Source of the DNA: a virus | Virus record (IMG/VR): IMGVR_UViG_3300028400_000004 | Coordinates: 1 to 64,000 of that record | Length of the DNA: 64,000 nt | Strand: one strand, 5' to 3' | Shown: in pieces, positions 1 to 48,025 of the stretch | How the letters are laid out: every line of letters begins with the position of its first letter | Numbering within the stretch: position 1 is the first letter of the stretch | Position numbers and translations under genes: made by a program | The notes under the pieces: generated by a model | Databases searched by the model: none | What the model was told of the DNA's origin: nothing | What the model saw: the letters and a program-made list of their open reading frames with translations, nothing else

Positions 1-188
1 CTGAAGTTTCTGCATTAGTCAAATGCCGAAAAATCCCATATTCTATATTTGTTGTAAGGGTAAATAGTAAAGGGGAATTGCGACTAGCAAAACCTTGTGA
101 ATCTTGTATGCTTGCCTTGGAACAGGTAAATATAAAAAATATTTATTATAGTGATAATAATGGTAATATACAACATATTGCGCTATAA
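1..188 (+). CDS. Deaminase-fold protein, C-terminal fragment (partial)
   Basis: The reading frame is open from base 3 to a TAA at 186-188, and its start lies outside the window. The 61 visible residues contain AKPCESCMLAL, a P-C-x-x-C zinc-ligand motif, preceded by a beta strand and followed by a short strand (IKNIYYS). This is the arrangement of the second half of cytidine/deoxycytidylate deaminase-like domains. The HxE half would lie upstream, so catalytic competence cannot be judged. It is a different protein from the complete dCMP deaminase at 15681-16172. The substrate is unknown. Confidence 0.6.
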   Translation, partial: EVSALVKCRKIPYSIFVVRVNSKGELRLAKPCESCMLALEQVNIKNIYYSDNNGNIQHIAL

Positions 189-6492: not shown

Positions 6493-7030
6493 TTTAATGC
6501 ATTATATATTAGAATTTAATAATATAATATTAATCTGATTCGCTTGATTACATGCTATGTCATACATGGCATGATTAATGCATGATACATTGATTTAATT
6601 AAATAATTATATAAGTATATTTTTATTTAATCATGGTCTGATTTATGCCTGATTGTTATATAGTTATATAGTAATATAATGCTGATCTGATTCATCTGAT
6701 TGAATATAATTATTTTATTATACGTTGATTAGCTAATACGCCTGATTAAATATTAGAATATAATAATGTAATTGATTCCTGATTCGCCTGATTGGCTATT
6801 AGCATTTAATTATATACTGATTAACTGATTAACTAACACGCCTGATTGGCTATTAGCGTTTTATTATATTTTAATAAAATAATATTATTAAATAATTATA
6901 TTAGAATATAAGAATAAACTTAAGTAACAATATTAGAATATAAAAGAATTTAGGCTCGAGTACATTCTAAAATAAGAATATGATAAAATTCTAATATAGT
7001 TTATTAATTAAATAGGCCAATTTTAGAGTT

Positions 7031-7046
7031 TGGCATGGGTTTTGCA
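7031..7046 (+). promoter_or_regulatory. TTGGCATG-N4-TTGCA promoter element, cassette 3
   Basis: TGGCATG-GGTT-TTGCA, or TTGGCA plus 17 bases plus TATATA. The following AATTCTTTATATAAGG matches the downstream block at 5353 and 6059. Confidence 0.5.
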
Positions 7047-7107
7047 ATTCTTTATATAAGGGATTGCATAAGGATAAGATTAAGTTATGTGGCTATAGAA
7101 TTTTTTA

Positions 7108-7173
7108 GTGTTGCGTTGGTGGGCGAGTATGTTATCCTAGACTGGCCAATGTAGGATCACACTAAGAGGAGGA
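7108..7173 (+). repeat. 66-bp promoter/leader repeat, copy 1
   Basis: Bases 7108-7173 are identical to 8068-8133. The block carries TTGCGT (7111-7116), 16 bases, TATCCT (7133-7138), then a leader ending in AAGAGGAGGA, a strong Shine-Dalgarno. The identity stops exactly before the differing start-codon contexts, so it works as a portable expression leader. Confidence 0.9.
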
Positions 7174-7177
7174 GGTC

Positions 7178-7675
7178 ATGATCTATCCCGCTACTGATCG
7201 TCACTTTGTGATCTTCGGCGGGTACTCGCCCGCCGTCATCTACGTCACCCCCGCGTGGGGTGACGACCTGGACCGCTTTTTTGCGCTCCAGTTCATCCCC
7301 GCTTGGGCGGTCCCCGCCCAGGTGGACCGCTACGGGAAGGTCCAGGCGGCCTTCCCTGACCCGGAGGGCCTACGACTGGCCTTCCGGTCGGCCCCTTACG
7401 GCCGGGGGCCGGAACGGGTCTCGGTCTTTTCGCCAGAGGGGGATCATCCCCTCTGGCGGGTTTTCGAATTGGACGGGGTCAATCCCCGTCCAATTCGCCA
7501 ATGGGTGGTCCGGGGACCCCGGACCACCCCCATGGCCCACCCCGAACCTCAGTCGGGGTGGGTCCCACCCACCGAATGGGGGCGCTCGACCCCCTATTGG
7601 GTCAGCCCGTCAGGGCTGACTTTCCCCCAAGACGTGCCCGACCACCGGCGGCCACATTGGTGGCCGCCGGTTTGA
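7178..7675 (+). CDS. Cassette 3 open frame, 165 aa, or structured RNA
   Basis: An ATG follows AGGAGGAGG, so translation is well supported. The first part, MIYPATDRHFVIFGGYSPAV, looks protein-like. The rest is Pro/Trp/Arg-rich (PHWWPPV at the end) and no family is recognised. The region is very GC-rich, and other frames on the same strand are also open, so frame length alone is weak evidence. Nearly the whole message folds into successive perfect stem-loops (see 7216-7711). It may encode a protein whose mRNA is structured, or act as RNA with incidental coding. Confidence 0.45.
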   Translation: MIYPATDRHFVIFGGYSPAVIYVTPAWGDDLDRFFALQFIPAWAVPAQVDRYGKVQAAFPDPEGLRLAFRSAPYGRGPERVSVFSPEGDHPLWRVFELDGVNPRPIRQWVVRGPRTTPMAHPEPQSGWVPPTEWGRSTPYWVSPSGLTFPQDVPDHRRPHWWPPV

Positions 7676-7711
7676 CCCGCACCCCGCCCCACCAGATTGG
7701 TGGGGCTGGGT
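7216..7711 (+). other. Array of about 15 consecutive stem-loops in cassette 3
   Basis: Inverted repeats in order: 7216-7235 (7 bp), 7243-7265 (9), 7302-7322 (9, one GU), 7323-7344 (6), 7348-7370 (8, one GU), 7374-7389 (6), 7389-7411 (7), 7431-7458 (11), 7465-7497 (14, perfect), 7503-7529 (12), 7536-7562 (10), 7575-7598 (8, one bulge), 7601-7620 (8), 7644-7671 (12), 7681-7711 (terminator). Stems differ in sequence and loops are 3 to 10 bases. Confidence 0.85.
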
Positions 7712-7714
7712 TTT
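7681..7714 (+). terminator. Cassette 3 terminator
   Basis: GCCCCACC / GGTGGGGC with loop AGATT, extended by CCC/GGG past one mismatch and followed by TTTT. Confidence 0.8.
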
Positions 7715-7947
7715 CTATTGGCCAGAATATTAGAATATGATAATATAATTGCAAATTTATGTATATTTTTAATTATATTATTATATTCTGATTAGTGCCT
7801 GATTGGCATGACTGATGCATAACATGCCTGATTGGCCTGATTGCGAAGCAACATGGCCATGATTGGCCTATATCTTGCATGGCCTGCTGGCTAGAATGGG
7901 TCTTAGAATCAGTCTAATAATCATTACTGCTATGCAGTAATGTTAAC

Positions 7948-7969
7948 AATAATCATTATCATTATCATT
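7948..7969. promoter_or_regulatory. Fur-box-like hexamer array
   Basis: The minus strand reads as three consecutive GATAAT-like hexamers (GATAATGATAATGATTATT), the classical Fur recognition pattern. It lies upstream of cassette 4, directly before a TGGCACG-CATT-GTGCA element (7969-7984) and after a 9-bp hairpin (7922-7942). Short AT-rich matches can arise by chance. Confidence 0.3.
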
Positions 7970-8067
7970 GGCACGCATTGTGCATACATGCACGAATTGT
8001 GCCATGCTGAGGATGGCATGGTGTTTGCTAAAAATAATATGAGTTTATGGCAGGATAAGAAATTTAT

Positions 8068-8133
8068 GTGTTGCGTTGGTGGGCGAGTATGTTATCCTAG
8101 ACTGGCCAATGTAGGATCACACTAAGAGGAGGA
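8068..8133 (+). repeat. 66-bp promoter/leader repeat, copy 2
   Basis: Identical to 7108-7173, at an offset of 960 bases. TTGCGT at 8071-8076, TATCCT at 8093-8098 and the Shine-Dalgarno at the end drive cassette 4. Confidence 0.9.
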
Positions 8134-8139
8134 TTCGTT

Positions 8140-8532
8140 ATGACCCGCCCCACTACCAAAATTCGTACCACCACCATCTCCACCAAGCTTGTCGTGCAGG
8201 AAATATTCCTGCACGACACAGGGGAGCGTCACGTCAAGGGCCGTTGGGCCCAGGTCGGCACATGGAAGTGCCGGCATATCTACGTCCGCCACGACGTGTG
8301 GCGGACCCTCCAAGGCCGCCCAAACCCCCCAACCCTCGTCCTTGAGGTCTTGGACCTCAGGGACGAAATCCTCAGGGCGTCCCTCTCAGGGGACGTGGGC
8401 CCCCTGACAGTCACCCGCAGGTCCGAGCGACGGCACATCGGTGGGCCGTCCTCCATGGCCACCGCCCAGGTCCAATGGTGGGACCTGGGCGGGGTCGTCG
8501 GGATCGGAGGGATACCGCCGTCCGATCCCTAA
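8140..8532 (+). CDS. Cassette 4 open frame, 130 aa, or structured RNA
   Basis: The ATG lies 8 bases after AGAGGAGGA of the repeated leader. The product starts MTRPTTKIRTTTISTKLVVQ and is basic and Arg-rich, with no family recognised and no similarity to the cassette 3 product. It is very GC-rich and several frames are open. As in cassette 3, the message is a chain of perfect inverted repeats, so RNA function or protein plus RNA structure both remain possible. Confidence 0.45.
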   Translation: MTRPTTKIRTTTISTKLVVQEIFLHDTGERHVKGRWAQVGTWKCRHIYVRHDVWRTLQGRPNPPTLVLEVLDLRDEILRASLSGDVGPLTVTRRSERRHIGGPSSMATAQVQWWDLGGVVGIGGIPPSDP

Positions 8533-8567
8533 CCAGCACCCCACCATGCCGAGCAGGCATGGTGGGG
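8190..8567 (+). other. Array of about 10 consecutive stem-loops in cassette 4
   Basis: Inverted repeats: 8190-8218 (13 bp, perfect), 8238-8251 (5), 8254-8275 (8, one GU), 8284-8306 (9, perfect), 8341-8361 (9, one GU), 8378-8395 (7, one GU), 8429-8450 (6), 8462-8492 (12, perfect), 8500-8529 (9, perfect), 8539-8567 (12, terminator). Arms are unrelated in sequence to those of cassette 3. Confidence 0.85.
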
Positions 8568-8570
8568 TTT
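8539..8570 (+). terminator. Cassette 4 terminator
   Basis: CCCCACCATGCC / GGCATGGTGGGG with loop GAGCA, then TTTCTTATT. Confidence 0.85.
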
Positions 8571-9156
8571 CTTATTGCCCACACTATCACCATATCCTTA
8601 TATTATTATATACTAATACCTAACCAATTCTTAGACTCATTCTAATTCTCACCTAAAATTCCCCCATATTTTACCCTATTTTTGTATTTTATAACTCCAT
8701 AAAATCCAGTAATAATGCGGCTTCCAGCATTATTATTTGCTTATTTTTTAATATTTTTCTATATACGCGCTTAACGCGCAATAATAATAAATCACCAAAA
8801 ACCCAACTTTCCTATATACGAAAAAACTCGGCTGTTGGATTTTTAACTTATCTTTTTGGATGGCCAAGAATCGCATAAAAATGCGCCTTTCAGCGCGCAT
8901 AACTTTCCATTTTTGCGCTTTATTGCGCATCAATGCGCGTATGCACTAAAAACACAAAAAAGCATAATGGCACAGAACGTGCAATATGCATGAATCGTAC
9001 CAGCATAATATGCCGATATGCTAATATAGCGCCTCAGATAACGCCTGAGCGCCAAAGGCGCGCAACATGGCATACCCTATGCATACATGCATGAAATGCG
9101 CCAGAATCGCACCACAGGCGCGTGTAGGACCATATAATAATATAATGGTATGCTAA

Positions 9157-9172
9157 TGTTTCACGTGGAACA
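9157..9172. promoter_or_regulatory. parS-like ParB-binding site
   Basis: TGTTTCACGTGGAACA matches the bacterial chromosomal parS consensus (TGTTnCACGTGnAACA) at every defined position. It lies in noncoding DNA close to other repeats. No ParA or ParB gene is seen in the window, so binding by host ParB is the simplest reading. Confidence 0.6.
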
Positions 9173-9194
9173 AGAGAAGGGGAGAGAATGGTGT

Positions 9195-9228
9195 CTAGTG
9201 TGGCCAGGTGGCTAGTGTGGCCAGGTGG
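9195..9228. repeat. 17-bp tandem repeat, two copies
   Basis: CTAGTGTGGCCAGGTGG is present twice head to tail without mismatch, 23 bases downstream of the parS-like site. Confidence 0.85.
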
Positions 9229-9314
9229 CGAGCGCCTACACGTCCCAGGGGGGGGGGCAATCGGCGCGTGTGGGGTGGCGCGGAAATTGCAATATAAGGA
9301 CAAATATTCTGGCC

Positions 9315-9437
9315 TCATTTTTTCATTTGAAAATATATTAAGTATTAATATTCTAATCTAATATGGCCAAAATATCATGACATCATTTTTTCATTTGGAA
9401 TTATAAAGAATTTCTTGGTCTTGTTTTTTCATTTGGG
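9315..9437. repeat. Three TTTTTTCATTTG direct repeats
   Basis: Copies at 9315-9329, 9383-9399 and 9421-9437, each preceded by a TGGCC- or TGGTC-like word. Spacing is irregular. They may be protein-binding iterons. Confidence 0.55.
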
Positions 9438-9566
9438 ATTTACTGGCTTACTATAGGCTGGTTTTTAATTAAGCCAATGTATTCCATCCTTATTATTTTG
9501 TAATAGTTTGTTACTTATCTAATCTAAAATAAGATATTATTATACCTTTTATTTGAGTTAATATAC

Positions 9567-10082
9567 TTATATATTCAATTCTTCCATTTTATTTTTTATT
9601 TGTTTAGCTAGATATAAAAAGTGATTAGTGCTTATACATGGTTTTTTGTTTTCAAAAATGAAATTGAATAAAACATTTATAGCTACCGTTTTATGATAGC
9701 CTATACCATTACTACAGTTATTTATGTTTAATAAACTGAGTGTTGTTATGAGGACGTTATATTTGTCTATTTAGCTGAGTTTAATATCGCGATATAGTTT
9801 ATGCGTATATAATTTTATGTAGGTCCCTACTTACATATTATTTATTTTTATGTAATTGTTTTTGCCATAGGTAGGGCAGAAGCTAATAAAAGTATTTCGG
9901 TTGATAAGTATTTTCTGTGGTAAAGTGCTATTTAATATAGTAATTTCCTTTGTTATACTGTTCAATATAGTAGGCTCTGTTCTATCTAACAATACTTTAT
10001 AATAATATAAGTCTTTGTATAGATTGTAAATAGTATTTAGACTGGTTTTATTTAGGTTTGGTATGAAAAGATTTGTATCCAT
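9567..10082 (-). pseudogene. Paralogous family member 1 with two in-frame TAA codons
   Basis: The frame starting at 10082 (MDTNLFIPNLNKTSLNTIYN) stops at TAA 9831-9833. The same frame continues through a second TAA (9771-9773) to a final TAA at 9567-9569. The distal part (DKYNVLITTLSLLNINN ... KQIKNKMEELN) matches the C-terminal half of the neighbouring paralogues, and total length (172 codons including the two internal stops) fits them. Two nonsense changes without a frameshift suggest recent decay. Stop-codon read-through is a less likely alternative. The first 83 residues could still be made. Confidence 0.75.
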
Positions 10083-10084
10083 TG

Positions 10085-10567
10085 TTAGCTGATTAATGGC
10101 TTTCCATACATTATAGTGTGTAGGGTGTTTATTTTTTGTTTGAAGGATTCAGCCGCAAATATATAATAAGATGAGGTCGGAGGCATTTTGGTTAAATAGA
10201 TATATAATAGTAATGAAGATAATGGATAATAACGAAAAGTCTTATCTTGTTTAAGATTAAGCAATGATATGCTTATTATATAAAGAAATGCAAATCTGTT
10301 TGGTTTTGTAAATATCTCAAATGTATCTATAGAATAATTATATAATTCTGTGTATATAAAACACAAAGAAGGCACTATATGTAATCTGCCGTCACTTACA
10401 TAATAAGAAATGTTTTTATCATAAGATAGTGTCCTCAATTTTTTGATGAATAATGTGGTTAAGGGCCTTGGAAAATTGTCTGTTAATTCTTGGTAGTTAT
10501 TTATGTCATTATATAATTCGTATAACTCATGTAGTTCTGATTTGGTAGGTGTATAGTCAATAAACAT
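10085..10567 (-). CDS. Paralogous family member 2, 160 aa
   Basis: Members share an N-terminal segment of the type ELYxLYNDIxNYxxL, a middle strand region (here RLHIVPSLCFIY), a hydrophobic helix followed by LLxLK/D (ISISLLNLKQDK), and a C-terminal K-x-KI-x-x-L-x-xI-x-Y motif (ESFKQKINTLHTIMYG). No known family is recognised. It overlaps the start region of member 3 by 11 bases, so the genes are translationally linked. Confidence 0.65.
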   Translation of the reverse strand: MFIDYTPTKSELHELYELYNDINNYQELTDNFPRPLTTLFIKKLRTLSYDKNISYYVSDGRLHIVPSLCFIYTELYNYSIDTFEIFTKPNRFAFLYIISISLLNLKQDKTFRYYPLSSLLLYIYLTKMPPTSSYYIFAAESFKQKINTLHTIMYGKPLIS

Positions 10568-11075
10568 TTAATGTCTCATTAAATAATAAATTTAGCTGAC
10601 GGATTTTGTTTTTAAATGCATTAAATATTATACTAGTACAAGTAGATTGCCTTATACTATAATTTATGTTGTTTGCTTTATATGTTCTTTCTAATAAAGC
10701 GTACTCATTAAATATGATAACATCGTTTGCTATTTTACTTTGGGTATGGGTATATTCAAACAAACAAGTTGTAAGCATGTATAAAAATTGGAATTTTAAA
10801 TCTTTTTCATGTGAAAGCCTTTCCCAATTTATAATTGTATAAGCATTTAATTCTTTTATGTATATAAAATTTCTATGATAAAGATTGAAAACTATAATGT
10901 CATCCCTTAAATATAAAGGATCGCCATGCATTGTAGTATTTAATTGTTTTAGCTTGTTTGATAGAATTTTGATGAGTTTTTCATTATAAGTGTCCATAAG
11001 ATAATAGTATTTAAATATATCATTATAAATACTATAAATTTTAGGTATGTCGTCCTTATTGAAATCCACGAACAT
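10557..11075 (-). CDS. Paralogous family member 3, 172 aa
   Basis: It begins MFVDFNKDDIPKIYSIYNDI, close to the openings of members 2 and 5, and keeps the NTTMHGDPLYLRDD mid-segment and a C-terminal KNKIRQLNLLFNE. It is more diverged in the central hydrophobic helix (LYMLTTCLFEYTH). The function is unknown, and it is AT-rich like the rest of the operon. Confidence 0.65.
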   Translation of the reverse strand: MFVDFNKDDIPKIYSIYNDIFKYYYLMDTYNEKLIKILSNKLKQLNTTMHGDPLYLRDDIIVFNLYHRNFIYIKELNAYTIINWERLSHEKDLKFQFLYMLTTCLFEYTHTQSKIANDVIIFNEYALLERTYKANNINYSIRQSTCTSIIFNAFKNKIRQLNLLFNETLNVY

Positions 11076-11076
11076 T

Positions 11077-11307
11077 TTATTTGTTGAACGACAATGTAAC
11101 GCAAATTACACCACAATTTGTGGCAACCGTATGAATCCTAGAGACGCCGAATACGACGAAATCTCGTTTTTCCCTAGAATTTTCAGTGCAATAACAACTA
11201 TTTACCATGTCATAATAAAAAAGTTTGTTGCCGTAACCAACAAAATCACAAAAAGGATCGCGATCATTACAGGCAAATTCTGTATAAATCTGTAATGGAA
11301 ATAACAT
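11077..11307 (-). CDS. Cys-rich hypothetical protein, 76 aa
   Basis: The minus-strand frame has AAGGAAG just before the ATG and lies in the operon direction, ending one base before the member 3 start. The sequence contains scattered Cys (EFACNDRDPFCDF, SCYCTENSRE, NCGVICV) and no CxxC pair. A plus-strand frame across the same bases (11047-11295) lacks context and is rejected. No family is recognised. Confidence 0.45.
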   Translation of the reverse strand: MLFPLQIYTEFACNDRDPFCDFVGYGNKLFYYDMVNSCYCTENSREKRDFVVFGVSRIHTVATNCGVICVTLSFNK

Positions 11308-11325
11308 AACTTCCTTTTTGAAACC

Positions 11326-11559
11326 TTAAATTCCTATAAACCACGCATCATCATGAGCACCTATCCCGAATAGAAACTTATGTATTATAACTTCCTTTAC
11401 GTTAAATTGTTTGTTCAATTCTAAAAGAAAAGTATCAGAAAAATCTAAAACACTGATGGCAGGATTATCTTGAAATGGCTTTTTGTGTGTCCGTAATTGT
11501 ATTTCTGTGTCTGACAAGTAATCAACTAGGGCTTGGTAAATATCTTTATAGTTTTCCAT
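11326..11559 (-). CDS. Hypothetical protein, 77 aa
   Basis: The gene starts behind AGGAGCC and begins MENYKDIYQALVDYLSDTEI. It ends in FGIGAHDDAWFIGI, a short Gly/Trp-rich tail. It is soluble and acidic with no motif assigned, and sits between two paralogue-family genes. Confidence 0.5.
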   Translation of the reverse strand: MENYKDIYQALVDYLSDTEIQLRTHKKPFQDNPAISVLDFSDTFLLELNKQFNVKEVIIHKFLFGIGAHDDAWFIGI

Positions 11560-16172: not shown

Positions 16173-16954
16173 TTTTTTATAATACTATCCCATTCTTTTA
16201 ATGTAGTGTCTCTATTCGATTTCCAAATAAAAGGATTATTCCAATTAAAATAAACAAACATAATTACGACTTCCTCCATCTCTGGCTGACCTACTACTTT
16301 ATAATACCAAATCATTTCGTCAAGTACGCAAATACGGGTCATTTTATCTATATTACATAACTTGCGTCGGCATTGTGCTATATATTTATCCGTATTTTTT
16401 ATATAATTGTGCATATACAATTCAACTTCTAAACCGTTCTTTATTACTATATCATCATTAATAGTTTTTAATTTTTCTACAATACTATCCATGTTGAAAT
16501 TTGTTAAATAATATTCTCGCATTAACTTAGTCTTCGTATATCCAACATATAGTAAACAAGCAAAATATTCTATTTCTTTTTCTTCTAATATAAATGTCTT
16601 GTGTAAATGCTGGTTAAAGAACTCTATTAGTATGTCTATTGTCCCTTCCGCTAATCCTTCTTCTTTCTCTATAATGTCATTATCTTCTTTTTTATTATAT
16701 ATACGATAGGCTATTCTTCTTATCTGTAAATTAGATAAAGATAGATTATTTACTAATTTTTTAGTTTCTGGATCATTCAAATCTATATGCGTCTTTACCT
16801 TATAATTTGGATCAATACTTTTTATTTTCTGCTGTACATAAGGTCTATTTATGTTCAAGGCTTTGGCAATATAACTGTATGGATATTTTTTTTGCATTAA
16901 CTGTTTTAGTAATATATATTTCTTATCGTCCCAAATAATACGTTTTTTTGTCAT
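16130..16954 (-). CDS. Putative HTH DNA-binding protein, 274 aa
   Basis: The N-terminus IIWDDKKYILLKQLMQKKY followed by SYIAKALNINRPYVQQKIKS has the spacing of a helix-turn-helix (W-x-x-x-K-x-x-L ... IAxxLxxxxxxVxxKI). The remaining 220 residues are helical and unrecognised. It is the first gene of this minus operon, divergent from the portal gene, a location typical of a regulator or a packaging factor. I cannot distinguish a transcription factor from a diverged small-terminase-like protein. Confidence 0.55.
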   Translation of the reverse strand: MTKKRIIWDDKKYILLKQLMQKKYPYSYIAKALNINRPYVQQKIKSIDPNYKVKTHIDLNDPETKKLVNNLSLSNLQIRRIAYRIYNKKEDNDIIEKEEGLAEGTIDILIEFFNQHLHKTFILEEKEIEYFACLLYVGYTKTKLMREYYLTNFNMDSIVEKLKTINDDIVIKNGLEVELYMHNYIKNTDKYIAQCRRKLCNIDKMTRICVLDEMIWYYKVVGQPEMEEVVIMFVYFNWNNPFIWKSNRDTTLKEWDSIIKNWQKSRRPLSCQTK

Positions 16955-29939: not shown

Positions 29940-30292
29940 TGACAAAAGAAGAATGGCTACAACAAGCATTATATACACCATATATCCATAACAAAGAACA
30001 ATTAAGGATAGGCTTTGACTGCTTTGGATTAATAAAAAATTATTACAAGAATGTTCTTGGAATTAAATTAAATAATGATTTATTGAAAATGAAAAATATG
30101 TTTATAAAAAAGTTTGCCCCAAAAAACAATGGAGATATACTAATACTACATGGAAAACCAACACATGCAGTATTATATTGGGGTGAAGGACTATGTTTAC
30201 ACATAACAAGTAGTACTATTTATCCTGTATTTGAAAGACTGACAAATCCAGAAATAAAAAATTACAGAGCAGTATATGCGAAAAAACACTAA
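29936..30292 (+). CDS. NlpC/P60-type tail tip peptidase, gpK-like
   Basis: A 118-aa protein. GFDCFGLIKNYYKN holds the catalytic Cys and KPTHAVLYWGEG the His of the NlpC/P60 fold. The fold cleaves peptidoglycan peptides, and in tails it helps cell-wall penetration. It is smaller than lambda gpK, keeping only the peptidase domain. It overlaps the tail-tip gene by 17 bases. Confidence 0.8.
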   Translation: MMTKEEWLQQALYTPYIHNKEQLRIGFDCFGLIKNYYKNVLGIKLNNDLLKMKNMFIKKFAPKNNGDILILHGKPTHAVLYWGEGLCLHITSSTIYPVFERLTNPEIKNYRAVYAKKH

Positions 30293-33200
30293 AGTTTTAA
30301 TTTATAATAATCCACTAGAAAAGGTTACAGACACAGTCATATACTGCAAGCCTGGATTTTGTATTAATGATCTTAATATAAATAAAGATAATTATATTTT
30401 CTATGTTAATGGGAAGCCTTGTGACTTTGACTACAAATTGAAAGCTGAAGACATTTTATCAATTTATGTATTACCTAAAGATACAAATAATACTTATGTA
30501 AGGCAAGGTATTAAATTAGCTGCTGTATTGGCCGTTGCATCTTTAACCCAAAATTGGGTCGCCGGATGGAAAATGGCCGCATTATTATCAACCAATTTAA
30601 TAGCAAATTATTTACTGCCAGATTTGCCATTAGATGAAACAACACCGGAAGAGTTACTTAGTGGAACACTAACAGAGCCAAAAGAAGGTCTTAGGATTCC
30701 AAAAATATTTGGAAATGTTCATTTCACACCGCCAATGGCTGCACGTCCTCATTTGAACCCTGGATCAGGAAATGACGCTAGTATTGTATACTGCGTAGCT
30801 TTAGGATATGGGCCACTAGACTTAGTAGGAACATCCACTAGCCTGCAGCTTAGTGGTACTAGAACGACTCCACATACTATAAACGATATACCGGATGGAT
30901 CAATTACACTGGGTGGTACAGATATAAAGCAAGCTAAAGGTGTGGAAATAGAAATAGGTGATCCAAACACTTTTTCTATCTATGATGAATTAGTATATGA
31001 CCAAGTAGTCAATTTTTCATATACAAGAACGAACGGTGTTGAAGATAATTGGACACCGGATAATGTAGAGCATATACAAACTATGGGGGTAGCTGGTAAA
31101 AATATCACTATAAATATACACTTTCCTAGTGGATTATACACAAAAGGCGGAGATAATAAAGTAAATAAGCGGTTCCAAGATATAGTTGAGTTTCAAATTC
31201 AATATAAAAAATCAACAGACACTACTTGGACTTCATTTAACTTACCCTCTAAATTTTTAGATTATAGTTATCCAGACTCAACAAAAGGATGGATATATGG
31301 AGGAAAAACAAAACCATTTTGGGTTAAAATAAATTTAGAATTACCTACAGAAGATATTTATGACATAAAATTAGTAAGAATAAGAACTCACACAGGAGAT
31401 AGTGAAGTAGTACGCGCTACATTCGTATGGGAAACCTTGGTAATAACTAAGTCCGGACAACCAATAAAACAATTATATTCCCCTAAAGTTGATAGTGGTG
31501 AAGAACCAATATGGATGGCTATCAAAGTAAAAGGAAAAGATAGAATAAAATCAGCTTATGATCTAAAGGTTAATCTAGGCGGTTACTGCTTTAATGGAGC
31601 AACAAAAGTAAGAACCCAATCTCCTGCCTTAGCAGCTTTAGAAATATTAACAACGTCTGTCAATAAGAATAGAGTTGACCCTTCAAAAATAGACATAAAT
31701 AGTTTTACTTCCTGGGATAGTTGGTGCTCGTCAGTAGGATATACATTTAATACTGCATATTATAAAGACGAAACACTAAAGTCTGTATTGGATGACGCCA
31801 GCCGTGCTGGATTAGGGCGGGTAATCATTACTGACCAAGGATTCAGGGCTGTATATGATGCGGGTGCTGCAAATGCTACGCCAACCCAAATATTCACACC
31901 TCGTAATTCTTGGAACTTTTCTGCTACACAATCAGCAGATAAAATTCCTGATGCCGTAAAATTAATGTATCTAAATGAGGATACTGCAACCCAAGATTCT
32001 GTCATTGTTTATAATACTGGATATGACGAGAGTACAGCTTTTGATATAACCGATTATAGTTTTAGAGGTATTACTACCCATGATCATGCCGCTAGTATTG
32101 CTTCATTTTTATTAAATACCGCCAATTTACGACCTACTACATATAAATTTATAACCACAATTGAAGCGTTACGCAGTATTGTTGGTGACAAAGTTAAATT
32201 ACAACATGATAGCATTGCAGTAGGATATGGATCGGGTCGTGTAATAGAAACAACCACATCAGCAGGAAATATTACTGCTGTTAGACTGGATGAACGCATT
32301 GTATTAGGGGGCGCCACTTCTGGAGACAATTCTATTCTATTTAGAGCTAGTGACGGCGTAGTTTATATTTCCCAAATACAAGAATTTAATGTAGAAACAG
32401 ATACTTTTACATTATCTAATCCTATAAGTGATACTGTTAACTTATTAGATGCTATAGCTACTGTAGGAAAAACATCGCAAGAAACTATAGATTTAGTTAT
32501 AAGCGATATTGAATATTCTAACGACTTTTCAGCTACAATTACTGGATTTGATGCTGCACCTGAAGTACATAATCATACAGGCAGAATACCACCTTATACA
32601 CCGCCAGCATATTTACCTCCAAATATAGAACAACTAACTCCACCAACGCCAAGTATTGTTAGTGCCTTTGCTTCAATAGAAGATAGTGACGTATTGCCGG
32701 ATGGAACACCTTTAGCAGAGCTAAAAGCATTATTCAAGTCAGCAGACAATTCTGTACCTGTTGAAAAAATAGAAGTACAGGTTTGGGCAGATTCTTCTGT
32801 AGATAGCCAAGCACAACCTATTACTTATGTAATTGATCCATGGGAAGGTTTAAGTGTAAAAGTAAACTTCGATGATAATATTTATTTAAGGGCTAGAAGC
32901 GTAAGTCCGTACGGTAAAACTTCTGATTGGACGGATTTACAAACAATTACCCCTACATGGACATGGCCGCCAGGTGCTGTTACTAATTTACAAATTGAAA
33001 ATTTTGATGACAAAATAAAACTATCATGGGATAAGCACGAAAGACCTTCTGTAAAAGAATATGAAATAAGACGTGGAACATCTTGGTCAACTGCTACAGT
33101 TTTAGGCAGAACTACAGATACATTTTTTATTGATTATGCACAAGGTGTAGGAAATACTACTTATTTGGTCGCACCTATTGATAGTACAACGAATGAAGTC

Positions 33201-36200
33201 GGTGCGGTTGCTTCCGCTATTTTAACTGTTACTAATCCTATTGTGTCTGGATTAACAGCTACAATAATACAAAATAGGGTTAAATTATCATGGGGAACTT
33301 CACCCGGCACATGGCCTATTGATAGACACGAAATAGTTATAGATGGAGATGAAGCGAACAAAATAAAAATAAATGGCAATAATAATGCCTATTGGCTAAA
33401 TGACTTATCATTAGGAACACATACTGTTATTGTTAGGGTTGTATCCATTGTTGGCGCATCCCATGAGCAATCAACAACTTTTGACATTATAGACCGGCCT
33501 GTAGGTACAGTAGATGATAGTGGTGTCTTTGTTAGAAATTGGGAAACAGATGCACAAATAAATGAATTACAAAGTACTACTTATACCTTATTAGCAAAAA
33601 GCAATTTAGGTCGTAATGGCGGTAATTGTTTAGATATTACTCCAGATAGTTCAGGCAAACATTCACATTATACATCCACATGGGCAACTTCTTTATTACC
33701 TGATAAAGTACAAACTGCGTTATTAGCAAAACGAGTAAGGTTTCAATCTTACATAAAATCAAAAGATGGAACAACCCCTCCGAGTGCTGGAAATATTATT
33801 TACTGGGATGCTAATTTTAATGATGACATAATGACAACGGGGAATCAAGAACATAGTGGTAATGGTTACCCATTTTTTAGTGAAATTATTTATGATGCCA
33901 CCGATCCAGATAATTATATTGTTAGACCCGGAGATGTTTTAAGAGTACAAGCAGAATTAAAGGTTGACAGTGTTGCTCAAGCTGCTGGAGTGAATTCTCG
34001 TCTATTTGTATATATTGTAGGGAAAAATAAAAATGATAATACAACACTATGGTTAGATTCAGTAAGCATTTCTTCCAATTCTACTACTTATCAATTATTA
34101 GATACAGAATTTGTAATAGCTAATGATGTAGCGATAAATGATTATACAATATATAAAGTAGGTATAGATGTTTATCACTTTCCTTCATCAATAACTGATG
34201 GAATAGCCTATGCTAGAAACATAAAAGCCACAATACATGGAAAAGCATTTTCAATATCAACACAAAATTCAGTTATAACAGACGATTGGATTAATATAGG
34301 TGCTATAGTTAAAATTCCTTCATATGCAACAAATATCCGATATGGTGTAGCTCCTTCGCATGATCGCGCAGATGGAAATGGATGTTTATTGGATGACTTT
34401 TCCATATTCCCAGTACCTGACAAAATAGATTCAAATAATATTGAACAATGGATTTCAAAGGCTGCAATTGGCGATGCGTACATTAATAGTTTAATTGCAG
34501 ATAAGATTAAAAGCGGAACAATATCATCAGAAGTTATTTATGTAGGCGATCAATCTATACAAATAGATGGGGCAAATAATTGGATTTTAATAAAAGACAA
34601 ACAGGGGACTCCTAAAAGCAGGGTAGTATTAGGTAAAACGGGACCTAATGCTACCGATTATGGTATTACAATATATGATGAAAATGGTAATGTATTATTA
34701 GGAACAAACAGATCTTTTGATAGTAGTTTAGTTGATGCTTTAAGTACGCAAAATGCACCGAAAGAAGCCGGAGCCACCGCTACTGACCCAGCAAACATGG
34801 TCCGCAACGGCTCTCTGATAGCAGACAATGACAACTTCTCGACTTGGGGCTATGATTCTGACGACGGCGATCAGACGAAAGGCTGCGTGTACCAGGTCGG
34901 GAAATACTGGAAATATTCGGATCAGTACATCCCCGTTGATCTCAACAAGGCTTATGAGCTTTCTGCCAGCTTCCGCACCTTGCTTCCTAACACAACGCTG
35001 TATGCGGGTTTTTCGTGCTACGACAAGAACAAGAAAAACATTTTGTTCCGGCATTGTTGGCGTTACGCCGGGCGCGACACGACCCTATATGCAGCCGCGA
35101 ATGTAGGCGACACGGCGGTTCAGATTGTGCCGCCGCCTACCGCGTGGGACGCGCCTGGAAATTCATACATTGTTTTCGCAGTACAACCCGACTATTCGGA
35201 CCTGCCAAATTTCAACGACTACAAGATCACAAACATAGACACGTCCACGGAAGCAAGCGGGTATTGGATCATCACGTTGGATACCGCGCTGACCGACAGC
35301 TACGCGGCCGGGACCAGTGTCGGCAACGTGCGCGGCGGCAATACATGGCAGTATGCTCTACTTGCGAATCAAGTCGTCGGCACTTCATGGGTCCGTAAGC
35401 AGGCCAAAATAGCAGGCGTCAATGATCCTACCTCGCCGGCAGGATATACGCAGTTTCGCCGTGGGACAGCGTACATCAAGTTCATGGTGTACACGAATGT
35501 AAACCAAACCGACACAACGAAAGTCGATGACGTGCTGCTCTTACCCTTGCCAGACGAGCAAAATCTGGATGCGCTGAATCTGTCAAACGCGCCGCGCGAG
35601 GCCGGAGCAGACAACACCGGCAACCGCATCTACGGCACCGGCGGACTGCTGCCGAATTGGAATCTTGACATCATCGATGGCGAAGGCAAGCCCGCTGGTA
35701 TTCAGCCTGTTGAAGGCGTCTCGGACCGAAACGGCATCGCCGCGACGGCGGACGGGCTGAAGATTCAGCACCCGTCGGATTGGAATGTTGCTTATGGCTT
35801 CCCGGCAATACCGATTGATGACAAGCAGCGATACCGCGTTGTCATCACGCACCGGAGCGGGCAGTCCACGACGACGGGGCTGTATTTGAGGTTCAACGAG
35901 CTCAACACGGCGTTGCCGCAGGGGCAGACTCACGTAACCGCCCGCACGAGCTTCAAAGACCTACTCGCCAATGGCCCGATGCCCGGCCCCGCCTGGGTCA
36001 CAGATGAGTATAACTACACCCCAACACTGGGGACGAAATTCGCTTCGTTCTCAATGTATCACTGGGGCAACGCCGTCTCGTTTGAGTACGAAATCGATCG
36101 CGTGCAAATCATCCCGATAGCAAAGACGGCAAGTGACATTGACTACAGCGATGGCACGAACGTTGATTCGTTGAAACCGAAAGAGCCGAACGCGGATACG

Positions 36201-37127
36201 ACAAAAGGCGCCATCGAATCCGTAGTCACCATCAACGACCAGGGGGCGATCCAAAATGCTTCATGGGACACCGGAACGAAGAAAATCAAGATCGACTTCG
36301 CTAATCAGCGGATTGCTATTGGCGATGATGTTTACAGAAGTAGTATTCCTCACGTCCTGCAAGAATACAACGGTGGTCAACCAAGGTTTGAAGTTTCAAA
36401 TGGAGATCAATCTTACATAAGATTCGATTCAATTAATAATTTATTAGAAATAGGTCCAGAAATAAAAACAAAAGGACTATATGGGTATTTTAATAAAAAT
36501 CCTGTATATAGATCGTTATTAATAGACACAATAGCTTCCTATGTAATTTCATCTATTACCAAAGACTACGGTAAAGGTGGACTAATAATCAATCCTTATG
36601 GATTCTTATATAGGTTTATGCCTTTCAATAAAAATGGAGATTTTTCTACATACAATATCAGGCGCTATTATTTTACTATAGATACGGATTCAAACATTAA
36701 TTACAATTTAAATTTTTATTTTGGAAGGAACACAGATGATAGCAGTTACGTTTTTCCAACAAATCCTTATATAGATATAAAAATAAGTTTAAGTTATAAT
36801 AATATATCTATAAGTTTTTTTACTGAAAACGGGGAAACTATAAGAAGTACATCTACATCCTTTGGTAGTGGTAATGATAATATTGAAATAGTTATATATT
36901 CTTACTTATCAACATCAGGATTAATAACAGAATACACAACTACCGTCGATATATATGCTTACGGATTGAAAATCTTTGGAGGAAGTATTGCAACCTCGTA
37001 TAGTCCACTACTTCCAGAATTTTTTATGATAAAAAGTACAGATTCAACTTATAACATAATTTTATATGAGTTTAATTACACAGAATACTATAAAGATATG
37101 CCTACTGATTACATAGTATTGATATAA
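30276..37127 (+). CDS. Central tail tip / host specificity protein (gpJ/TipJ-like)
   Basis: 2283 aa. The N-terminus (VLIYNNPLEKVTDTVIYCKP) resembles the gpI-like start of TipJ proteins, followed by a hydrophobic segment (residues about 78-115) and the hub region (EPKEGLRIPKIFGNVHFTPP). FN3-like repeats are near residues 895-1070 (NLQIENFDDKIKLSWDKHER). A gpJ-type stem follows near 1400-1480 (AIGDAYINSLIADKIKSGTI), then beta-sandwich modules and a C-terminal receptor-binding tip. Bases 34750-36340 are strikingly GC-rich compared with both flanks, and the module linkers NAPKEAGATATD and NAPREAGADNTG repeat. This looks like an imported receptor-binding cassette. Confidence 0.9.
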   Translation: MRKNTKVLIYNNPLEKVTDTVIYCKPGFCINDLNINKDNYIFYVNGKPCDFDYKLKAEDILSIYVLPKDTNNTYVRQGIKLAAVLAVASLTQNWVAGWKMAALLSTNLIANYLLPDLPLDETTPEELLSGTLTEPKEGLRIPKIFGNVHFTPPMAARPHLNPGSGNDASIVYCVALGYGPLDLVGTSTSLQLSGTRTTPHTINDIPDGSITLGGTDIKQAKGVEIEIGDPNTFSIYDELVYDQVVNFSYTRTNGVEDNWTPDNVEHIQTMGVAGKNITINIHFPSGLYTKGGDNKVNKRFQDIVEFQIQYKKSTDTTWTSFNLPSKFLDYSYPDSTKGWIYGGKTKPFWVKINLELPTEDIYDIKLVRIRTHTGDSEVVRATFVWETLVITKSGQPIKQLYSPKVDSGEEPIWMAIKVKGKDRIKSAYDLKVNLGGYCFNGATKVRTQSPALAALEILTTSVNKNRVDPSKIDINSFTSWDSWCSSVGYTFNTAYYKDETLKSVLDDASRAGLGRVIITDQGFRAVYDAGAANATPTQIFTPRNSWNFSATQSADKIPDAVKLMYLNEDTATQDSVIVYNTGYDESTAFDITDYSFRGITTHDHAASIASFLLNTANLRPTTYKFITTIEALRSIVGDKVKLQHDSIAVGYGSGRVIETTTSAGNITAVRLDERIVLGGATSGDNSILFRASDGVVYISQIQEFNVETDTFTLSNPISDTVNLLDAIATVGKTSQETIDLVISDIEYSNDFSATITGFDAAPEVHNHTGRIPPYTPPAYLPPNIEQLTPPTPSIVSAFASIEDSDVLPDGTPLAELKALFKSADNSVPVEKIEVQVWADSSVDSQAQPITYVIDPWEGLSVKVNFDDNIYLRARSVSPYGKTSDWTDLQTITPTWTWPPGAVTNLQIENFDDKIKLSWDKHERPSVKEYEIRRGTSWSTATVLGRTTDTFFIDYAQGVGNTTYLVAPIDSTTNEVGAVASAILTVTNPIVSGLTATIIQNRVKLSWGTSPGTWPIDRHEIVIDGDEANKIKINGNNNAYWLNDLSLGTHTVIVRVVSIVGASHEQSTTFDIIDRPVGTVDDSGVFVRNWETDAQINELQSTTYTLLAKSNLGRNGGNCLDITPDSSGKHSHYTSTWATSLLPDKVQTALLAKRVRFQSYIKSKDGTTPPSAGNIIYWDANFNDDIMTTGNQEHSGNGYPFFSEIIYDATDPDNYIVRPGDVLRVQAELKVDSVAQAAGVNSRLFVYIVGKNKNDNTTLWLDSVSISSNSTTYQLLDTEFVIANDVAINDYTIYKVGIDVYHFPSSITDGIAYARNIKATIHGKAFSISTQNSVITDDWINIGAIVKIPSYATNIRYGVAPSHDRADGNGCLLDDFSIFPVPDKIDSNNIEQWISKAAIGDAYINSLIADKIKSGTISSEVIYVGDQSIQIDGANNWILIKDKQGTPKSRVVLGKTGPNATDYGITIYDENGNVLLGTNRSFDSSLVDALSTQNAPKEAGATATDPANMVRNGSLIADNDNFSTWGYDSDDGDQTKGCVYQVGKYWKYSDQYIPVDLNKAYELSASFRTLLPNTTLYAGFSCYDKNKKNILFRHCWRYAGRDTTLYAAANVGDTAVQIVPPPTAWDAPGNSYIVFAVQPDYSDLPNFNDYKITNIDTSTEASGYWIITLDTALTDSYAAGTSVGNVRGGNTWQYALLANQVVGTSWVRKQAKIAGVNDPTSPAGYTQFRRGTAYIKFMVYTNVNQTDTTKVDDVLLLPLPDEQNLDALNLSNAPREAGADNTGNRIYGTGGLLPNWNLDIIDGEGKPAGIQPVEGVSDRNGIAATADGLKIQHPSDWNVAYGFPAIPIDDKQRYRVVITHRSGQSTTTGLYLRFNELNTALPQGQTHVTARTSFKDLLANGPMPGPAWVTDEYNYTPTLGTKFASFSMYHWGNAVSFEYEIDRVQIIPIAKTASDIDYSDGTNVDSLKPKEPNADTTKGAIESVVTINDQGAIQNASWDTGTKKIKIDFANQRIAIGDDVYRSSIPHVLQEYNGGQPRFEVSNGDQSYIRFDSINNLLEIGPEIKTKGLYGYFNKNPVYRSLLIDTIASYVISSITKDYGKGGLIINPYGFLYRFMPFNKNGDFSTYNIRRYYFTIDTDSNINYNLNFYFGRNTDDSSYVFPTNPYIDIKISLSYNNISISFFTENGETIRSTSTSFGSGNDNIEIVIYSYLSTSGLITEYTTTVDIYAYGLKIFGGSIATSYSPLLPEFFMIKSTDSTYNIILYEFNYTEYYKDMPTDYIVLI

Positions 37128-47785: not shown

Positions 47786-48025
47786 TTATTTATTAGAAAC
47801 TATAAGTACACCGACAGACCCAGTTGATGGGTCTTCACAAGTTAAATTTACTTGTACTTGTCTGCAAGCCTCTGGATCATATACATCGTTACTAGCAAGA
47901 CAATACTCTCTTAAATTAGCAATTTCATCACCATCTAAACAAACCATAACTTGAATCCCTTTATCTCCGTAGGCACATCCTACTAATAGCACAAATAAAA
48001 ACACTAAAATAATTTTATTTATCAT
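47786..48025 (-). CDS. Lipoprotein, 79 aa
   Basis: The signal peptide MINKIILVFLFVLLVGC has a LVGC lipobox (Cys 17). The mature part has four more Cys (MVCLDGD, EYCLAS, EACRQ, LTCEDP), compatible with two disulfides in the periplasm. Small Cys-rich phage lipoproteins can act in superinfection exclusion or lysis; no direct evidence here. Confidence 0.65.
   Translation of the reverse strand: MINKIILVFLFVLLVGCAYGDKGIQVMVCLDGDEIANLREYCLASNDVYDPEACRQVQVNLTCEDPSTGSVGVLIVSNK

Follow-up and report, generated by a model that had tools for sequence, protein, structure and literature searches.

A single 16-mer, TGTTTCACGTGGAACA, located at positions 9157-9172 of the viral record IMGVR_UViG_3300028400_000004, fits exactly the consensus of the chromosomal parS site. 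We consider it probable (about 0.6) that it represents an orphan parS, that is, one loading site for the chromosomal ParB of the host on a phage without recognised ParB or ParA. The whole record comprises 83,753 bases, and its bases 1-64000 constitute the window, the whole stretch of DNA that was first read, to which the coordinates of this phage refer. The sequence-only reading of the window had proposed that the phage may recruit host ParB. We infer from the sequence that this proposal, which can be upheld to that extent, is the best reading of a true parS located in gene-poor phage DNA, in a phage in which no ParB of its own was found.

The parS site and its gene-poor surroundings

The site is a near-palindrome that joins two half-sites, TGTTTCAC and GTGGAACA, both of them known. 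Its minus-strand reading is TGTTCCACGTGAAACA, and either strand of 9157-9172 fits the 16-bp chromosomal-type consensus TGTTYCACGTGRAACA exactly, as had been claimed when the site was first noticed. In Pseudomonas aeruginosa, the sites parS2 and parS3 are TGTTCCAC and GTGGAACA, respectively (PMC4368675); in Bacillus subtilis, where the sites first described have the TTTCAC form, a site starts with tGTTtCAcGTG (PMC4368675). The comparison of the 83,753 bases with the canonical parS gave one exact match, none with one to three mismatches, and four matches with four mismatches. Furthermore, Markov models of order 1 to 3, computed on the window plus the stretch L122, predicted about 4e-5 sites of the TGTTYCACGTGRAACA family in the record. 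The hexamer CACGTG was observed once in the record versus about 4 copies expected under the Markov models, and this sole copy is inside the parS site. The low expectation and the empty range of one to three mismatches bear out the earlier statement that a match by chance is improbable, and we take 9157-9172 to be a true parS sequence.

The parS is placed in a gene-poor interval of ~1.26 kb (8569-9830), delimited by the ORF map and a codon-position test, between convergent transcription units. On the upstream side, the plus-strand ORF 8140-8532 terminates at a strong terminator-like stem-loop of the plus strand (8538-8568; 13 pairs, 9 of them G-C, and a T-rich tail), which closes this gene. The downstream border is formed by minus-strand ORFs without assigned function, ending at 9831 and beyond. 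Roughly 10% of the genome lies outside ORFs, and the parS belongs to that fraction. The description of the site as being away from genes holds in the sense of this interval of ~1.3 kb, with the caveat that a 94-aa minus-strand ORF (9034-9318) spans the parS. The codon-position G+C of this ORF (0.52/0.58/0.52) has no coding signature, and therefore the interval was treated as noncoding.

The repeated elements that had been noticed beside the site are all present as described. A tandem 17-mer, GGTGGCTAGTGTGGCCA, adjoins the parS in 2.4 copies (9190-9229), and a G10 run is found on the plus strand (9248-9257), 75 bases from the parS, being the sole G or C run of at least 7 in the record. In addition, three diverged direct repeats around CATTTTTTCATTTG extend over 9302-9443 of the plus strand. 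The fold of the DNA in 9100-9300 was ordinary (z -1.37), and an Rfam search for structured RNA gave no match.

Two ORFs of this neighbourhood, 7178-7675 and 8140-8532, present a third-position G+C of 0.77-0.80, versus 0.25-0.40 in the other phage genes compared, in a phage whose G+C is 33%; this indicates that foreign DNA entered the neighbourhood of the site. Each of the two ORFs is followed by a strong terminator-like stem, and neither of them gave a family match. The idea that the region was imported from a plasmid or a known phage was considered and rejected, since no plasmid similarity was found for 7000-9400 and no phage DNA match for 7500-11500; genome contigs, too, contained no relative of the 8140-8532 protein.

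Two other parts of the window differ from their context in composition or repeats. The segment 5183-7900 is AT-rich and gene-poor and contains tandem repeats as well as recurring GCCTGATTGGC-like words, and 35000-36200 is a patch of 50-63% G+C within a 2283-aa ORF (30276-37127) in AT-rich surroundings.

Gene content of the phage and search for par genes

The structural and packaging genes found in the record are those for portal, capsid protease, major capsid protein, tape measure and terminase. Replication and other functions are represented by a DnaB-like helicase, a primase, a family A DNA polymerase, a recombinase, a reductase, ThyX, a dUTPase and a sigma factor. A model search of the whole record for an integrase gave no match, and from this result together with the tailed-phage gene set the genome looks like that of a large tailed phage of lytic type. 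The capsid resembles that of N15-like linear phage-plasmids (phiKO2, PY54), a likeness that might point to a plasmid prophage. The phage might still be a plasmid-like prophage, as the sequence-only reading had considered, although neither par genes of the recognised families nor an integrase were found.

To look for a partition system, profile models were run on all six frames of the 83.75-kb record. For ParB, the models PF02195 (ParB_N) and TIGR00180 (parB_part) gave no match, and the control genomes were positive; for ParA, the model PF13614 (AAA_31) gave no match in the whole record, and 14 of 14 control genomes were positive. Thus, neither of the two genes of a self-contained ParABS, which has parB and parA in the same replicon, was found. 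The ends of the record (window 1-50 and L122 19704-19753) overlap by 50 bases with three differences, in a record classed as being without end repeats, and this overlap points to a record that is nearly complete or circularly permuted. Considering the negative models in the whole record and the overlapping ends, a canonical ParABS encoded by the phage itself appears unlikely. The sequence-only reading had also suggested that the phage could encode its own ParB outside the window; this did not hold, since the rest of the record contained no match to ParB_N, parB_part or AAA_31, and for the recognised families the idea of an own ParB or ParA beyond the window was rejected. The phage could possibly encode a ParB-like protein of unrecognised type.

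No close relatives of this phage were found by capsid, terminase or reductase, nor by DNA match for 7500-11500. The relatives that could be obtained are distant or fragmentary, with 52-64% in the major capsid protein and 40-42% in the terminase. The available DNA of these distant relatives, most of it short fragments, contained no parS, and no parS with at most one mismatch was found among 80 reductase relatives (1.03 Mb, 25-26% identity). The search for a host through prophage-like capsids in genome contigs found nothing.

Recurrence of the same word in other phages

The exact 16-mer was found in at least 120 IMG/VR stretches. Two control words of the same composition, few as controls, were searched in the same way: the word with its letters reversed appeared in 1 stretch, and the word with its halves swapped in 10, among them a tandem made up of two parS sites. 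Compared with these numbers, most of the IMG/VR occurrences are not due to chance, as judged against only two control words. Among the 120 matches listed, 48 were noncoding, i.e. outside ORFs of at least 100 aa, versus 20.7 expected if the positions were drawn at random from these stretches; about 60% of the matches listed sit within ORFs. At least 47 of the 120 listed stretches have a gene in, or linked to, a phage cluster of structural or packaging type, and host DNA may be present among the rest of the matched contigs. As for the contigs with a noncoding site, 48 of 49 were without a ParB_N match and 1 had it. A canonical parS in the absence of ParB_N is found in phage genomes beyond what chance would give, and the same word is present in phages that are unrelated to the one studied here and have no obvious protein in common with it.

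A few contigs carry 2-12 parS sites. Twelve canonical sites are present at 8906-12906 of L045, a 13.9-kb stretch of a 116-kb viral contig with 65% G+C, which may stem from the host or from a phage with an array of parS. L008 has parS at 6637, 6863 and 6879, with two copies directly adjacent, and L031 has parS at 884 and 1565, with three in its whole contig.

By protein clustering, about 31 of the 120 listed stretches share terminase or portal clusters, and many of them belong to one diverse podovirus family. The clusters shared are those of the large and small terminase subunits, the portal and a GroES-like protein, and the isolates of the family include the Pelagibacter phages HTVC023P and HTVC027P, the Roseobacter phages CRP-901 and CRP-902, the Planktothrix phage Pag-Yong1 and the Caulobacter phage RW. 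Many members have only 34-60% protein identity, yet the parS occupies the same positions, either between terS and terL (L018, L078, L086 and L120), near the terS start (L068 and L119), or immediately behind the portal gene (L012, L026, L066 and L111). L044, L237, L242, L246 and L311 likewise carry a parS, canonical or with one mismatch, close to terS, terL or portal. In L012, L026, L066, L068, L111 and L119 the reading frame that crosses the parS can translate it as VPRET, and the position and the protein concerned vary. This variation argues for selection at the DNA level and not at the protein level, in loci that were picked by the exact word and are no independent proof.

In a choice-free test, 80 loci of the family were fetched by the terminase protein only. 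A parS with at most one mismatch was present in 5 of these 80 loci (3 exact; one contig was already known from the site search), and all five sites are within ~1.4 kb upstream of terL. Seven control words, searched as exact words or with one mismatch in the same 80 loci, gave 0 matches. Regarding the isolates, HTVC027P (MN698241.1) carries CGTTTCACGTGAAACA, with one mismatch, at 16412-16427 in a gap near terS, and the Alcaligenes phage vB_Af_QDWS535 (OK172329.1) carries the exact TGTTCCACGTGGAACA at 47934-47949, inside a small annotated ORF; in seven of the nine isolate records there was no parS. ParB_N was found in none of 26 phage records, most of them from the podovirus family and including site-bearing contigs of near 62 kb. 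The frequencies in the loci (5/80) and in the isolates (2/9), together with the negative ParB_N search, indicate that only a minority of the family has the parS, which was gained or lost repeatedly and is not linked to a phage ParB.

The G10 run beside the site was compared with the other phages. In the podovirus family, G/C runs of at least 6 were near the parS in 10 of 21 cases versus 4.1 expected, a count reached in 0 of 1000 null draws, where the null was taken from random noncoding places and the run threshold was chosen after seeing the data. Outside the family, the figures were 4 of 32 versus 2.2 expected, which is not significant. G/C runs as a general parS module were therefore upheld in the podovirus family and not outside it, and so the link between the G10 run and the parS in this phage is only suggestive.

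Possible role of the site and comparison with known systems

Few bacterial machines have been studied as well as ParABS. Once bound to parS, ParB forms a closed CTP clamp and spreads; ParA moves the resulting complex, which also loads SMC. According to the explanation that we propose, the ParB of the host would recognise the 16-mer on the phage DNA, would close as a CTP clamp and would slide over several kb of this DNA. The bound ParB could then tie the phage genome to the host ParA and/or SMC machinery, and the copies of the phage genome might be positioned, separated or compacted during replication or, alternatively, handed to the daughter cells in a carrier state. In this scheme the binding of ParB, its spreading and the resulting benefit are what we infer. 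That ParB really loads at 9157-9172 is quite likely; a role in partition or positioning, rather than as a decoy or in SMC loading, can be proposed only tentatively. As precedents, a plasmid was stabilised by one perfect parS with parAB (PMC4368675), and fluorescent ParB supplied by the cell formed foci on phage lambda carrying an engineered parS (PMC13190303). Against the proposed explanation, there is a single site and the distant relatives, most of them short fragments, are without it; in addition, the benefit of partition is not obvious for a phage that looks lytic.

Other readings of the site have to be considered. The 16-mer could have arisen by chance, or could have come with captured host DNA, and have no function. 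Such a passenger would be in agreement with a single site, with the presumably large number of windows scanned, in which rare matches turn up, and with the foreign DNA that apparently entered nearby, as judged from the third-position G+C of the two ORFs mentioned before. However, the Markov expectation and the numbers of the IMG/VR controls are against it, and the searches with 7000-9400, 7500-11500 and the 8140-8532 protein revealed no source for the region. We consider a passenger rather unlikely; in particular, pure chance is disfavoured by the Markov estimate, by the absence of near matches in the record and by the two IMG/VR control words.

If the site does bind the host protein, it could instead act as a decoy, in which case the phage parS, instead of partitioning phage DNA, would titrate or misplace the ParB of the host together with ParA/Soj or SMC, and would upset chromosome segregation or replication control in the host to the benefit of the phage. 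The lytic-type gene set without integrase suits such a takeover as well as it suits partition, and one site per genome would become many per cell after replication. Nevertheless, at entry a single site would face the several parS of a typical chromosome, and a strong decoy would be expected to have several sites; the record has one, although a few contigs carry more, as mentioned above. A decoy is an unlikely role. It is very unlikely that the sequence serves another binder encoded by the phage, be it a ParB-like protein of divergent sequence or a regulator that recognises the CACGTG core: many phage ORFs, some of them close to the site, are without a family match, but the match spans the full 16-base consensus of chromosomal ParB, beyond the core, the two ParB models were negative in all six frames, and the word recurs in unrelated phages without an obvious protein in common. 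We favour a loading site for the host ParB.

On a broader scale, orphan parS of chromosomal type might be a widespread and undescribed strategy, by which many unrelated lytic-type phages, with a parS that they captured or evolved, would rely on the ParB of the host, and indirectly on ParA and SMC, for positioning, separating or organising their replicating genomes; we see the odds for this as even. This phage would then be one independent case, and the HTVC027P-like podoviruses a lineage with recurrence at fixed places. What would be new is that phages use a chromosomal centromere as an orphan site dependent on the host, and that this use recurs. No report of a chromosomal-type orphan parS in natural phages was found in the part of the open-access literature available to us, which is weak evidence and does not prove novelty. 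If the proposal is true, phages exploit the universality of parS and the segregation of the host chromosome is part of the infection. In that case, the positioning of phage genomes could be tested in the existing isolates HTVC027P and vB_Af_QDWS535, and a scan for the site only, instead of a search for par genes, would be needed to find such phages.

Fluorescent ParB on an engineered parS is a standard means of visualising phage DNA, and the phages P1 and N15 encode their own partition proteins. Phage-plasmids and extrachromosomal prophages carry a partition-type centromere on a phage, as is the case here; the mycobacteriophage prophages with ParABS (PMC7157519) and the parB-bearing Staphylococcus phage Lacachita (PMC10286716) also encode their own partition protein, whereas the site of this phage is chromosomal in type and the searches for par genes gave no match. 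The chromosomal parS of P. aeruginosa (parS2 and parS3) and the Spo0J sites of B. subtilis belong to the same class of 16-base sequences (PMC4368675, PMC7333895). Unlike them, the phage site, a putative target of ParB, is located on a genome without recognised parA or parB and away from a chromosomal origin. The lambda-parS reporter shows that phage DNA bearing parS is a place of assembly for ParB provided by the cell (PMC13190303); that reporter, however, is an artificial construct with ParB coming from an expression plasmid, and not a natural recruitment of chromosomal ParB. Finally, the HTVC027P-like podoviruses (L012, L018, L078, L086, L120, L237 and others) present a canonical or one-mismatch parS, usually 1-2 per contig, with no ParB_N in the records tested. 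The phage studied here differs from them in that it belongs to another lineage and its site lies between ORFs of unassigned function, far from the terminase.
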